This document shows positions 7,809 to 11,715 of a stretch of 64,000 bases of DNA, one piece after another (position 1 is the first letter of the stretch; each line of letters starts with the position of its first letter). This stretch comes from Terriglobus albidus. GTDB lineage: Bacteria; Acidobacteriota; Terriglobia; Terriglobales; Acidobacteriaceae. Under the pieces are notes generated by a model. It was given only the letters and a program-made list of their open reading frames with translations. It had not been told where the DNA came from and did not search any database. The stretch covers positions 4,092,001-4,156,000 of the forward strand of contig NZ_CP042806.1 of assembly GCF_008000815.1 (NCBI RefSeq), in the 5' to 3' direction. The translations under genes were made by a program, and so were the position numbers.

Positions 7809-7887
7809 GTTGAATAGTTGAATGGTCGCTTCGCGTTCAGAACTGAGCGAACGCGGCTTCACTATTCAACCATTCAACTATTCCAAC
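7809..7887. repeat. Nested inverted repeat between convergent genes
   Basis: The left arm GTTGAATAGTTGAATGGT (7809-7826) pairs with the right arm at 7869-7887 with one extra base; inside lies a second stem CGCGTTC / GAACGCG (7832-7838, 7849-7855). The arms are built from tandem TTGAATAG-like units. The structure can serve as a bidirectional terminator for the DinB-like and VWFA genes. The last four codons of the VWFA gene (GAA GTT GAA TAG) are made from the same unit. Confidence 0.7.
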
Positions 7888-9038
7888 TATTCAACTTCTC
7901 TACGTGCTGTATAACCATCACGCGCGATGATGGAGTACTTGAGCTGCTTACCCTTTTCATCGATCATCTTCAGTGGCTGGCCCTCGTTATCGACCAGAGT
8001 CACCTTGATCTTGCGATAGCTGCCGTCCTGGTTGGGGTTAGAGGGCTTATAGCTCAACACGTACTGGTTGCGGATGGAATCGTTGATCGACGCGAAGATA
8101 TCCGGCAATGCTCCCTGGAACTGTGGGAAGAACGACAGGCCGCCTGTCATCGAGGCAAAGGTCTTCATCTGATTGTCGGCCTGCAGGTAGTCCAGCCGCT
8201 GGATGCCGCCCATACCGGGCTCAGCCATCGTACGCACTAGCTGGCCGGTGCCGATGGCGAAGATAGTGACATTCGGCGTGGCCTTGATCTTCTTCAGAAT
8301 GGTGTCGAGGTTGATCTTGGAGAAGGTATCGCGTCCGCTGCCCACCAGGACGATGTACTTACGGCCTTCGATACGGCTCACGCGGTCCAGCGTCTCATAC
8401 AGCGCGTCAAATAGATTCGTGTCGCTGAACCCCGGAATCGTCAGGGTCTGCAGCGCCTGCAGGGTCATCATTTTGTCTTTGGTGAAGTCAGTCAGGATGC
8501 GGGTGCGGAGGTCGTAGGTGATGACGGCAATATAGTCATCCTCTTTCAAGGAGCGGAAGAAGGCCGCAGCCGTATTCTGCATGTCCTGGATGAAGTACCA
8601 GTTGTTCGCGGCGAACTCCAGCAGCATCACCGCCGTGATCGGAGCCTTCATCGTCCGTAGATCGCTCACCGGCTGCGGTACACCGTCCTCGGTCACACGG
8701 AAGTTGCCCACCTTCAGCCCAGGGACAAACTGCCGGTTCTTATCGAGCAGTACGCTTACATCCACGGTCACCACCGGCACATTGACGCGGATGACCGGAA
8801 GATCCAATCCCTTTGGATTCTTGATCTTCTCCTCGGCGGGAGCTGGGGGCGGAGGCGCCTTGTCGTCTTTCGGCTGCTTCTTTTTCAGCACAATGCCGTC
8901 ATTCTGCTGCACCGGGCCGCTGTCATCTCCTGTGGGCGCCGGCGTCGTCGGCTGCTGTTGCGCCACAACTGTACCTGCAGACAAAACAATTCCCAGAAAT
9001 GCAGCAACTGCCAAACGGATGAGATCTCGCATGTTCAT
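7887..9038 (-). CDS. VWFA-related secreted protein
   Basis: 383 residues: a signal peptide (about 1-26, ending VVAQQ), a Pro/Lys-rich linker, a beta domain with VPVVTVDVSVLLDKN and VPGLKVGNFRVTEDG, then a von Willebrand A fold ending in NQYVLSYKPSNPNQDGSYRKI. This layout matches the VWFA-related proteins common in Acidobacteria. The metal-site motif DxSxS is not present at the expected strand (ITAVMLLEFAANNW), so metal-dependent adhesion may be lost. It lies 77 bp after the CorE-like sigma gene on the same strand and may belong to that unit. Its C-terminus is formed by the inverted repeat at 7809-7887. Confidence 0.85.
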   Translation of the reverse strand: MNMRDLIRLAVAAFLGIVLSAGTVVAQQQPTTPAPTGDDSGPVQQNDGIVLKKKQPKDDKAPPPPAPAEEKIKNPKGLDLPVIRVNVPVVTVDVSVLLDKNRQFVPGLKVGNFRVTEDGVPQPVSDLRTMKAPITAVMLLEFAANNWYFIQDMQNTAAAFFRSLKEDDYIAVITYDLRTRILTDFTKDKMMTLQALQTLTIPGFSDTNLFDALYETLDRVSRIEGRKYIVLVGSGRDTFSKINLDTILKKIKATPNVTIFAIGTGQLVRTMAEPGMGGIQRLDYLQADNQMKTFASMTGGLSFFPQFQGALPDIFASINDSIRNQYVLSYKPSNPNQDGSYRKIKVTLVDNEGQPLKMIDEKGKQLKYSIIARDGYTARREVE

Positions 9039-9115: not shown

Positions 9116-9670
9116 TTAAACGGAAATGTTCTGCGAGCGGCAGGTGCAATCGATGCAGCCATGCTCGGAGCAGGCGCCACAAGTCCTGGTCAACTGCTTC
9201 CGCAGCGCTGCCCTTGCCCGATGAGCCCTAACGGCGGCATTTCCGGCCGAGATTCCCTGTTCTGCCGCAAACTGCTGCAATGGCCTCTCCCCAAGATCGA
9301 CGGATTTCAATAGACCAGCGTAATTCGCTGGGAGCTGATCCAGCACTTTGCTAAGGCACGCACAGATTTCATTTCGAAGCTCGGGAGCTGGAACCACCTC
9401 GGCTTCCATCTCTTTCCCCCAGGCCGAAAGCGCCTTGCTCTCCGTCGTCTTACGACGGTACTGGTCGATGACGGCATTGCGAAGGATTCGGTAAAACCAT
9501 GCCACCACAGACTCTTCGTCCTGCGGCGTCCCTTCGGACTTCAGGGCGCGCAGGTAGGCGCCCTGAAGCAGGTCCTCGGCAAGCTCCTGGTCCTGGACGC
9601 GGCGACGCACAAACCCCAGGAATTGCTGCCTATGCGACAAAAGCGTATTCAGATTTGTCTCAGTCATCAC
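9116..9670 (-). CDS. ECF sigma factor with Cys-rich C-terminal tail (CorE-like)
   Basis: RNA polymerase sigma factor of 184 residues with region 2 at about 10-80 (ELAEDLLQGAYLRAL, WFYRILRNAVIDQYRR) and region 4 at about 105-160 (LDQLPANYAGLL, AAVRAHRARAALRKQL). It ends in a tail with Cys164, 167, 172, 175 and 177 plus His170 (CGACSEHGCIDCTC). Such tails occur in CorE-type (ECF44) factors, where in Myxococcus bound copper, cadmium or zinc switches the sigma factor without an anti-sigma protein. No anti-sigma gene is present. The first codon is GTG 9670 or ATG 9667, with no clear Shine-Dalgarno. Upstream on the same strand is a Cys-rich micropeptide; downstream is the VWFA gene. Confidence 0.9.
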   Translation of the reverse strand: MMTETNLNTLLSHRQQFLGFVRRRVQDQELAEDLLQGAYLRALKSEGTPQDEESVVAWFYRILRNAVIDQYRRKTTESKALSAWGKEMEAEVVPAPELRNEICACLSKVLDQLPANYAGLLKSVDLGERPLQQFAAEQGISAGNAAVRAHRARAALRKQLTRTCGACSEHGCIDCTCRSQNISV

Positions 9671-9685
9671 AAATATTGGATTATT

Positions 9686-9716
9686 ACCGCGGAGGAAGGA
9701 ACCACCCCCCCGCGGT
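9686..9716 (-). other. Hairpin between Cys-rich peptide and sigma gene
   Basis: ACCGCGG / CCGCGGT arms with a 17-nt C-rich loop lie in the 57-bp space between the two genes. There is no U tract, so it is more likely a partial attenuator or RNA-processing element than a full terminator. Confidence 0.5.
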
Positions 9717-9727
9717 TCGGTTCGGCT

Positions 9728-9805
9728 CTAACGGCGGCTGGCGCAGTTGCAAATCGGGCAGGTGCAGCTGCTTCCGCAGGGGCAATTGTCACATTTCAGA
9801 CGCAT
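9728..9805 (-). CDS. Cys-rich micropeptide, metallothionein-like
   Basis: A 25-residue frame too short for most gene finders: MRLKCDNCPCGSSCTC followed by PICNCASRR. Seven of the 25 residues are Cys (5, 8, 10, 14, 16, 19, 21) in CxxCxC and CxC spacing, as expected for a small metal-thiolate cluster. Translation is well supported: ATG at 9805 with AGGAG six bases upstream and a TAG at 9728. It is the first gene of a leftward unit, 57 bp before a sigma factor whose own tail carries the same CTC motif. A metal-binding or metal-signalling role is inferred; no homologue is recognised. Confidence 0.7.
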   Translation of the reverse strand: MRLKCDNCPCGSSCTCPICNCASRR

Positions 9806-9820
9806 TGGACTCTCCTTTCG

Positions 9821-9837
9821 ACCGGGGCCATCCCGGT
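9821..9837 (-). other. Leader hairpin upstream of the Cys-rich peptide
   Basis: ACCGGG / CCCGGT arms with a 5-nt loop end 4 nt before the Shine-Dalgarno AGGAG of the micropeptide. It may tune translation. The rest of 9806-9966 must hold the divergent promoters of this unit and of the S55 peptidase gene. Confidence 0.45.
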
Positions 9838-9966
9838 TTCTGTCCGTAAAGACGCAGAGGACCGTTACCGATTACACTTCGTCGTCAAGTTACCTGTGAC
9901 ACTTCTTCGCTAACTGGCCGAAAAACGATCCGTCGAATCTCGTACACTGCTCTTTAAGTTAAACCG

Positions 9967-11715
9967 ATGTTTCGTGCCGCTCTCGCTTTCGTCCTGGTCA
10001 CCCTCCCGCTGACCTCAATTAGCCAATCAGCGGGCACGGCTCCGCCTACGACCACGAGTTTCTATCCGCTCGGAGATGTTCACCGCGGCCAGCATGCCAC
10101 CGCATGGACGGTTTTCGAGGGGATCACGCCTGAACCGATGGATGTTGAGATCCTCGGCCTGCTCCGCAACGCCATCGGGCCGGGACAGGACATGATCCTG
10201 GCACGGCTGCATGGTGCAAAGCCGGAGTACACCGGCGTAGTTGCCGGTATGTCCGGATCTCCGGTGTATATCGACGGCAAGCTCCTCGGTGCACTCAGCT
10301 ACCGGATCGGCCAGTTCAGTAAGGAACCCATCGCCGGCATCACGCCCATTGAGCAGATGCTGCAGGTACGCAACTCGGCTCTACCTGTGATTCCTGCCAC
10401 ACCGGCTACCACCTCAGGAGCCCCGGATCCTACGCTCCGGCCAACATCCACCTCAGGTGAGATTGTCCCGATGGAGACCTCACTCGTCTTTACCGGCTTC
10501 TCGCAGGACACTGTCGCGCTTTTCCAGGATCGCTTCACCTCGCTAGGCCTGCACCCCGTAGCGGGCATCGGTTCGGCGTCGCCTGGAGAGAAACAGCCGG
10601 AGCCGATCGTGCCCGGCTCGGCCGTTTCAGCCGTGCTTGTCGATGGCGATCTCTCCATCGCCGGCACATGCACGGTCACGTATGTCGACCCGAAGCAGTT
10701 GCTCGCCTGTGGTCATCCGATCACGCAATACGGCAACATCTCCATGCCGATGACGAAGGCCCAGGTGCTGGCCACGCTTTCGTCGCCCCTGAACTCCTTC
10801 AAGATCGTGAATACGACGGAGACCGTTGGCGCCTTCACCCAGGATCGCGCTTCGGCTATCCTCGGTCAGTTCGGTCAGACCGCGGAGATGATCCCGGTCA
10901 CAGTTGCAGTTAATGGCGGCAAGCCGATGCACTTCCGGGTCCTCAACAACCGGGAGCTCACTCCTCAGGCTCTGCTGGCCTCGGTATATCAGGCAATCCA
11001 CGGAACCAATACCTACGCGTCGGAGCTCTCCTATCGGGTGGGTGGAACGATGAGCCTCGCCGGTTATCCGCCGGTAAGCTTCTCGACTGTCGCCGCGCAG
11101 ACGGAACTTGCTCCCGCTGCGATTGTTGCGGCTCTCGCCGTCAATGATCGCTTCCAGCCCATCTACAACTCTCCGGCCGAGCAGCCAACGATCACCGGTC
11201 TGAACCTGAGAGTAGAGACGCTTCCCGGTCGCCGTACAGCCCAGCTCGAAGCGGCCCGCCTCAGCGTCGTCGAGGCCTCCCCTGGCGATGAGATTACCGT
11301 CGAGACGACGGTCACTCCCTATCAGAGCGCCGCGAGAATCATTCGTATCCCGGTAAAGCTACCCTCCACGCTCGACCCCGGTCCAGTGCGCATCCTGGTC
11401 TCAGATGGAGCGACTCTCGACCGTCTGCTTGCCCAGCAACTTCCCTCGTCACTCCCCCTGCGCGACACCATCGCGCAGCTCAATGAGCGGCATCCAAACG
11501 ACCGGGTATACGTGACCGTGCTGGACCACGCAGCTCAGGCGGTCATCAATGCGCAGGCGCTACCCCAGGTCCCACTCTCCATCGCCAACATCTACCAGCC
11601 GCTTCAGGACTCGCGGCGTATGAACCTCAACGGAGAAAGCCTGCGCGAAGCCGGCTCAGCCCCCACCGATAACGCCCTGACCGGTTCCCAGGTTCTGACT
11701 TTGAATATCCGCTAA
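9967..11715 (+). CDS. Secreted SpoIVB-type (S55) serine peptidase
   Basis: 582 residues with a signal peptide (cleavage near 20). The serine motif GMSGSPVYIDG is at 94-104 with Ser96 the likely nucleophile, followed by LLGALSYRIGQFSKEPIAGITPI, a hallmark of S55-domain proteins outside spore formers. ACGHPI near 245 resembles the family's His motif. The C-terminal 250 residues are beta-rich and may be PDZ-like or adhesive. In Bacillus SpoIVB triggers a signalling cascade; here the partner is unknown. The next gene starts on the very next base after its TAA, so the two are cotranscribed and probably coupled. Confidence 0.85.
   Translation: MFRAALAFVLVTLPLTSISQSAGTAPPTTTSFYPLGDVHRGQHATAWTVFEGITPEPMDVEILGLLRNAIGPGQDMILARLHGAKPEYTGVVAGMSGSPVYIDGKLLGALSYRIGQFSKEPIAGITPIEQMLQVRNSALPVIPATPATTSGAPDPTLRPTSTSGEIVPMETSLVFTGFSQDTVALFQDRFTSLGLHPVAGIGSASPGEKQPEPIVPGSAVSAVLVDGDLSIAGTCTVTYVDPKQLLACGHPITQYGNISMPMTKAQVLATLSSPLNSFKIVNTTETVGAFTQDRASAILGQFGQTAEMIPVTVAVNGGKPMHFRVLNNRELTPQALLASVYQAIHGTNTYASELSYRVGGTMSLAGYPPVSFSTVAAQTELAPAAIVAALAVNDRFQPIYNSPAEQPTITGLNLRVETLPGRRTAQLEAARLSVVEASPGDEITVETTVTPYQSAARIIRIPVKLPSTLDPGPVRILVSDGATLDRLLAQQLPSSLPLRDTIAQLNERHPNDRVYVTVLDHAAQAVINAQALPQVPLSIANIYQPLQDSRRMNLNGESLREAGSAPTDNALTGSQVLTLNIR

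Follow-up and report, generated by a model that had tools for sequence, protein, structure and literature searches.

A 64,000-nucleotide stretch of Terriglobus albidus DNA (the window) carries a gene for a 25-residue peptide with seven Cys directly ahead of a gene for a CorE-like ECF sigma factor, and this pairing of peptide and sigma factor is real and conserved. We think it likely that the cassette is a self-contained metal-homeostasis operon, in which a metal-activated sigma factor would transcribe a micro-metallothionein together with itself; our confidence goes no further because half of the sigma loci show no peptide.

The peptide and the sigma factor

The peptide frame (MRLKCDNCPCGSSCTCPICNCASRR; 9728-9805, minus strand) consists of 25 codons, seven of them for Cys, starts with ATG and is preceded by the Shine-Dalgarno sequence AGGAG (9812-9816, minus strand) 6 nt 5' of that ATG, exactly as an earlier, sequence-only reading had described it. 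Under fixed criteria (ATG start, Shine-Dalgarno sequence, 18-65 aa, at least six Cys and at least 16% Cys) it is the sole ORF on either strand of the window, and one ORF was returned from 141 kb of control loci (17 other ECF loci and 28 other stretches of the same genome). The genome holds a single copy of the peptide. Searching 61 genomes with the protein yielded nine matches at E <=0.05: eight adjoin a sigma gene, while the ninth (G009) has an internal stop. When the window is compared with its three nearest relatives, residues 12, 13, 22 and 23 vary, and the changes in Cys codons (residues 14, 19 and 21) are all silent, as is one in Arg codon 24; TGT makes up 104 of the 504 Cys codons in the set. 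That the frame is a functionless chance ORF is opposed by its conservation, by the promoter described below and by the silent Cys-codon changes; on these three grounds it was rejected, and we give it almost no weight.

Metallothioneins are very small, Cys-rich proteins with CxC and CxxC clusters and few or no aromatic residues or His. The make-up of the window peptide fits this description: 7 of 25 residues are Cys, with two-residue and one-residue Cys spacings, and there is no His, Trp, Tyr or Phe. Judged by composition, the peptide is most likely a metallothionein, i.e., a predicted metal binder. None of the 35 peptides scanned reached a Pfam or NCBIfam cut-off; three of them touched Pfam metallothionein models (PF02068 at 18.3 with cut-off 31.8, PF05522 at 15.9 with cut-off 23, and PF01439 at 11.1 with cut-off 23), and none gave any NCBIfam match. 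A profile of 22 short peptides retrieved six sequences from the PDB (E 0.029-6), five named metallothionein and one EC protein, and the window peptide by itself retrieved TRAF6 (E 3.5) and a metallothionein (E 9.5). Such matches are too weak for homology and fit convergence.

The sigma gene (9116-9670, minus strand; GTG start, alternative ATG at 9667) begins 57 nt after the peptide stop on the same strand. Its product passes the cut-offs of Sigma70_r2 (50.6 bits, cut-off 24) and TIGR02937 (73.8, cut-off 42.9) and falls just below that of Sigma70_r4_2 (23.1, cut-off 25.7); the best curated family is SigZ, also below cut-off (104.4 bits, cut-off 168.65). The claimed tail of five Cys and one His is present (CGACSEHGCIDCTC), as are the CTC and CxxC patterns that peptide and tail were said to share. 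The assignment as a CorE-like factor likewise holds: the tail residues C163, C166, C171, C174 and C176 are spaced like C181, C184, C189, C192 and C194 of CorE, and the linker between sigma2 and sigma4 has a CXC (C102 and C104), which, like the promoter and the hairpin below, was absent from the sequence-only reading. According to excerpts of published work on CorE, the linker CXC and the C-terminal Cys-rich domain are the two features essential for activity, the CXC being retained only in former ECF44 members of ECF238 (PMC8999054), and C189 is the main residue in copper activation (PMC3107203). In 12 orthologues of the window's sigma factor, C102, C104, C163, C166, C171, C174, C176 and H169 are invariant. 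Among the wider set of sigma loci introduced below, the linker CXC occurs in 128 of 128 and the tail Cys pattern in 125 of 128, shares that are not independent evidence because the loci were found with a profile holding those motifs.

No anti-sigma gene accompanies the pair, as had been noted before: the sigma gene's neighbours in the window are the peptide gene, a gene for an acidobacterial VWA protein of the TIGR03436 family (7887-9038, minus strand) and one for an S55-peptidase-like protein (9967-11715, plus strand), none of them anti-sigma. Nor is there a metal gene among these flanks of the cassette.

Conservation, promoter and hairpin

We collected 168 loci, which collapse to 128 distinct sigma loci, from three sources: i) 61 whole genomes, of which 14 matches of at least 45% identity were used; ii) 399 whole genomes, with all those at E <=1e-45 among the matches listed; and iii) a GTDB scan, from which the best 80 of 310 sigma relatives encoded were taken. 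A Cys-rich ORF (18-65 aa) lies within 330 nt upstream of the sigma gene at 58 of the 128 loci, on the same strand in 43 (22-45 aa) and divergent in 15 (39-53 aa). The remaining 686 kb of these loci hold five further ORFs of this kind: four are distant peptides with a promoter (L011, L045, L083 and L217), and the fifth (L238) has no promoter motif. Under looser criteria, two of the 66 remaining loci, L220 (divergent) and L239 (same strand, start ambiguous), have a Cys-rich frame with a promoter; both were kept out of the counts of 58 and four. With these two counted as having a peptide, none was seen near the sigma gene in 64 of the 128 loci, and the peptide is thus a frequent but non-obligatory partner of the sigma factor.

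The sequence-only reading had named, as the outcome that would speak against it, a frame and Cys pattern without conservation beside this sigma gene; the 58 of 128 loci represent the opposite. The pairing of a Cys-rich micropeptide with a CorE-like factor recurs beside sigma relatives in three phyla (Acidobacteriota, Nitrospirota and Gemmatimonadota), and a confinement of the peptide to near-identical strains was therefore rejected. The short peptides are chiefly operonic and found in Acidobacteriaceae, the longer ones chiefly divergent and found in other Acidobacteriota and in Nitrospirota, while the Gemmatimonadota loci L082 and L090 have operonic peptides of their own. The divergent type also occurs at L109 on the Nitrospira defluvii chromosome, whose sigma gene is presumably NIDE1902. 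N. defluvii NIDE1902 and four Acidobacteria were listed in 2011 as having Cys-tail sigma factors (PMC3107203, in excerpt). Mapping the four states onto a tree of the 128 sigma factors takes 17 changes, where shuffled states average 51.9; nine suffice for the operonic state alone, with gains and losses not separated by the tree.

At L246 (G006), an ORF that looks by eye like a glycosyltransferase gene stands between peptide and sigma gene, and the peptide's promoter and hairpin are retained. L031 (G005:C8) and L188 (G292:C1) share 3534 nt without a difference although their genomes are assigned to different genera, which reflects a cross-binned contig, a misplacement or a very recent transfer. 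Among the annotated genes of three of 31 records with plasmid copies of related sigma factors, whose gene tables are incomplete, there was no annotated metallothionein; one plasmid copy (L249) has a single promoter-like site 224 nt past the sigma match.

Reading the DNA upstream of the peptides revealed a common motif, TGTAA-N17/18-CGT. In the window it takes the form TGTAAT - 16 nt - CGTCTTT (9848-9876, minus strand), a predicted promoter with its -35 at 9871-9876 and its -10, CGTC, at 9851-9854 (both minus strand). The common form at operonic loci is A/G-G-TGTAATGTTT followed by CGTCAGC, and that at divergent loci is ACTGTAAGGTTT followed by CGTCAGC. A script placed the motif 5' of 56 of the 58 near peptides (spacer of 17 nt in 55 and of 18 nt in one), or of 57 when L005 is read from an inner ATG; L103 is the near peptide that has none. 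The motif was defined without 40 held-out loci, and there it precedes 23 of 23 near peptides; as the held-out loci have relatives in the first set, the test is not phylogenetically independent. Randomly placed control windows in the same loci contained the motif in 6 of 10,076 cases. The published CorE -35, as given in excerpts, contains AAC, with a -10 G 16-18 nt on, and neither confirms nor excludes TGTAA-N17-CGT.

In the 6.4-Mb genome the strict motif has one further site, within a long ORF that we read as presumably LptD-like, and the reversed control pattern has three. Allowing one mismatch gave 74 genome sites against 80 for the reversed control; at this setting the pattern is powerless, so no target beyond the operon can be named, and a wider regulon was rejected as a candidate. 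As to the sigma gene itself, the motif lies upstream of it on its own strand in 41 of 43 operonic loci, 0 of 15 divergent, 0 of 4 distant and 3 of the 66 remaining ones. Being nearly confined to operonic loci in this position, it leads one to expect autoregulation only in the operonic form.

Two smaller elements surround the window's promoter. A 17-bp direct repeat occurs in two copies 25 bp apart on the minus strand: the nearer (9864-9880) holds the -35, and the farther (9889-9905; GAAGTGTCACAGGTAAC), a tandem -35-like copy with TGTCA for TGTAA and without a matching -10, is possibly a second contact site for the sigma factor. In the predicted 5' leader, a small inverted repeat (9821-9837, minus strand) lies just 5' of the Shine-Dalgarno sequence. 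Leader folding gave z -1.1 in the window and z < -2 in 22 of 57 leaders alone, and a 5'-leader hairpin was left as suggestive rather than taken as a conserved element.

A GC-rich hairpin (9687-9715, minus strand) separates the peptide ORF from the sigma gene. In 34 of 39 operonic loci the stretch from the peptide stop to the sigma match folds with z < -2 (mean -4.1; four operonic loci with less than 25 nt of intergenic DNA were dropped), the window's own hairpin being weak against shuffles (z -1.0). In the 60 nt past the peptide stop, z < -2 was found at 34 of 42 operonic loci (L103 left out), 11 of 15 divergent and 4 of 4 distant ones, compared with 14 of 128 for the 60 nt past sigma stops. 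As it is present whether the peptide is operonic, divergent or distant, the hairpin belongs to the peptide gene. Since few of the folds inspected show a run of T past the hairpin, a role as an RNA end or stability element seems likelier than one as a strong intrinsic terminator.

Metal, mechanism and rival explanations

What else stands behind the promoter bears on the metal. At 38 of the 66 loci counted as lacking a peptide, an ORF of at least 35 aa with a Shine-Dalgarno sequence stands behind the motif, and the other 28 have no such motif-ORF site. Going by their sequence motifs, we take these ORFs to encode chiefly YHS-domain proteins, YHS or HMA P1B-ATPases, HMA proteins and cupredoxin-like proteins; the promoter motif is followed by efflux-adaptor-like ORFs at L075 and L086, by the peptide at L220, and by an ORF without a metal motif at L239. 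CPC precedes DKTGT in 20 of 21 motif-preceded ORFs of at least 500 aa, and the 14 complete ATPases have N-x6-YN-x4-P in every case and M-x2-SS-x5-N in 12, a combination that we presume to be the Cu+-ATPase signature. Such Cu+-type ATPases behind the motif point to copper as the usual signal, without being proof for the window. Seen from these sister loci, the metal sensed by the window's sigma factor is probably copper, an argument that is indirect because those loci belong to other sigma factors. At the YHS-ATPase loci (L074, L078, L091, L232 and similar ones) the promoter starts about +520 to +535 from the sigma match, i.e., at the end of the sigma gene and 5' of the ATPase gene, so that the sigma factor would drive its neighbour there and not itself. 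At L054 the same promoter precedes, at +632 from the sigma match, a 55-residue ORF with GGCC and CCCH Cys clusters, which is perhaps another kind of metal-binding output.

The same circuit might instead answer to zinc or cadmium in the manner of CorE2, a reading that we hold to be doubtful, if deserving of attention: against it stands the sister-locus promoter ahead of ATPases with the presumed Cu+ signatures (14 of 14 and 12 of 14). On its side are excerpts of two reports, in which CorE2 responds to Cd and Zn (PMC8999054) and bacterial metallothioneins are capable of tight Zn binding (PMC10612145).

In the homeostasis operon that we propose, the sigma factor (CorE type, with no linked anti-sigma gene) would become active, by analogy with CorE, once its linker CXC and Cys/His tail had bound a thiophilic metal, probably copper. 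It would then direct RNA polymerase to the conserved TGTAA-N17-CGT site at 9848-9876, and the genes, which lie in the order peptide first and sigma second, would be transcribed together. The hairpin may end or stabilise a short mRNA, in which case the peptide would be overproduced relative to the sigma factor, which would arise by read-through. The seven thiolates would chelate the metal, thereby protecting the cell and removing the activating ligand, and a negative feedback loop would be closed. The presence of the motif before near peptides in both orientations, and before distant peptides too, counts for this operon. So do the CorE marks of the sigma factor, the 58 Cys-rich upstream ORFs set against five elsewhere, the motif before ATPases and other metal-protein-like ORFs, the hairpin in every arrangement, the silent Cys-codon changes and, weakly, the profile matches to metallothioneins. 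On the other side stand the loci without a peptide, the family scores below cut-off and the weak folding of the window's own hairpins. At the 15 divergent loci the sigma gene is not under the motif, so autoregulation is not general. Three roles had been suggested for the peptide, i.e., that it competes for the metal, delivers it or is the output of the circuit. Output is the best supported of these, because the shared sigma-type promoter precedes the peptide gene whatever the arrangement; competition for the metal would follow from it, and delivery is kept as a lesser rival.

Delivery would make the peptide a metallochaperone or an anti-sigma-like partner that gives metal to the sigma tail, or keeps metal from it, by protein contact. 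Close linkage and the CTC and CxxC motifs common to peptide and tail suit such a partner; yet the tail is conserved while the peptides behind the common promoter are diverse, and half of the loci miss the peptide altogether, which makes direct contact unlikely in our view. We place somewhat below it a regulatory leader, in which the hairpin is opened by a stalled ribosome, or by the nascent chain as it binds metal, and the sigma gene can then be expressed, as in the copper uORFs of CutF/CutO or CruR. These uORFs are precedents, as far as excerpts of the literature describe them, and the hairpin found between peptide and sigma gene in 34 of 39 operonic loci looked supportive of a CutF-like leader. 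That candidate was nonetheless set back to a minor rival, as the hairpin also occurs behind peptides that have no sigma gene after them (11 of 15 divergent loci and all 4 of 4 distant ones, against 14 of 128 after sigma stops), a comparison that ties it to the peptide gene. By inspection, moreover, the window peptide lacks a Pro-rich or RAPP-like end and a signal peptide; it ends in CASRR and has no hydrophobic stretch. A precursor of a modified, methanobactin-like copper-binding peptide would be compatible with the length, which falls within the MbnA range of 22-40 residues (PMC7558416, in excerpt), but the only PF05114 (MbnB-type) gene of the genome is located 1.3 Mb away (G000:C1:5429114); with no linked gene of this kind, the precursor was rejected as highly improbable.

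Returning to the homeostasis operon, we see roughly even chances for a further proposition: that it is a homeostat in which the genome's one clear promoter of a direct metal-sensing sigma factor drives that factor's own negative regulator, among the smallest metallothioneins proposed, and in which promoter, leader and hairpin stay while the peptide is repeatedly replaced by very different Cys-rich sequences.

Known systems and wider meaning

Both parts of the cassette belong to known kinds, a CorE-like sigma factor and a metallothionein-like peptide. At 25 residues the peptide is as long as 1t2y, a eukaryotic copper metallothionein that the short-peptide profile matched weakly (E 3.8), with no significant homology; we take 1t2y to be the seven-Cys copper metallothionein of Neurospora crassa. 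The prokaryotic metallothioneins SmtA and BmtA are likewise small Cys-rich metal binders (a predicted property for the peptide), presumably of twice its size. Characterised SmtA/BmtA proteins have a zinc-finger fold and His ligands (PMC10612145, in excerpt), whereas His and aromatic residues are both missing from the window peptide. MymT of Mycobacterium tuberculosis is another small Cys-rich copper metallothionein and was long unannotated (PMC7558416, in excerpt); it differs in its size of 4.9 kDa and in being under the repressor RicR rather than under sigma factor control (PMC10141476, in excerpt). The CutF and CruR copper uORFs resemble the window in that a small Cys-containing ORF heads a metal operon and is followed by a hairpin or termination site. 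According to the excerpted literature, however, they rely on an arrest motif, and CutF also on export, and the hairpin described here also trails peptides with no sigma gene after them.

On the sigma side, CorE and CorE2 of Myxococcus xanthus (former ECF44, now around ECF238) share with the window's factor the ECF sigma type, the linker CXC, the tail spacing and the absence of a linked anti-sigma gene. The reported CorE targets comprise a multicopper oxidase, P1B-ATPases and a heavy-metal-associated protein (PMC3107203, in excerpt), whereas the first gene in the window encodes a predicted micro-metallothionein and is operonic with the sigma gene. According to excerpts of a 2021 review, CorE and CorE2 are the only metal-responsive members of their ECF group to have been studied by experiment (PMC8103513). 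The claim of an undescribed system stands for the literature searched, which took in neither the CorE2 paper of 2016 nor the ECF classification of 2021: the peptide types, the promoter and the sigma-metallothionein circuit appear undescribed there.

For relatives of CorE, the analysis supplies a conserved promoter together with a likely direct target, and a minimal reporter would now be enough to test whether a single sigma protein can act as the sensing switch. Metal biosensing, too, could draw on the cassette as a minimal feedback module of sensor plus sponge. Beyond this, it points to a class of metallothionein-like peptides of 22-53 residues that Pfam and NCBIfam miss and that may be common in soil Acidobacteriota. 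If the homeostat proposition is true, there would be many new, unannotated types of micro-metallothionein, for which the promoter, and not homology, would be the guide in a search.
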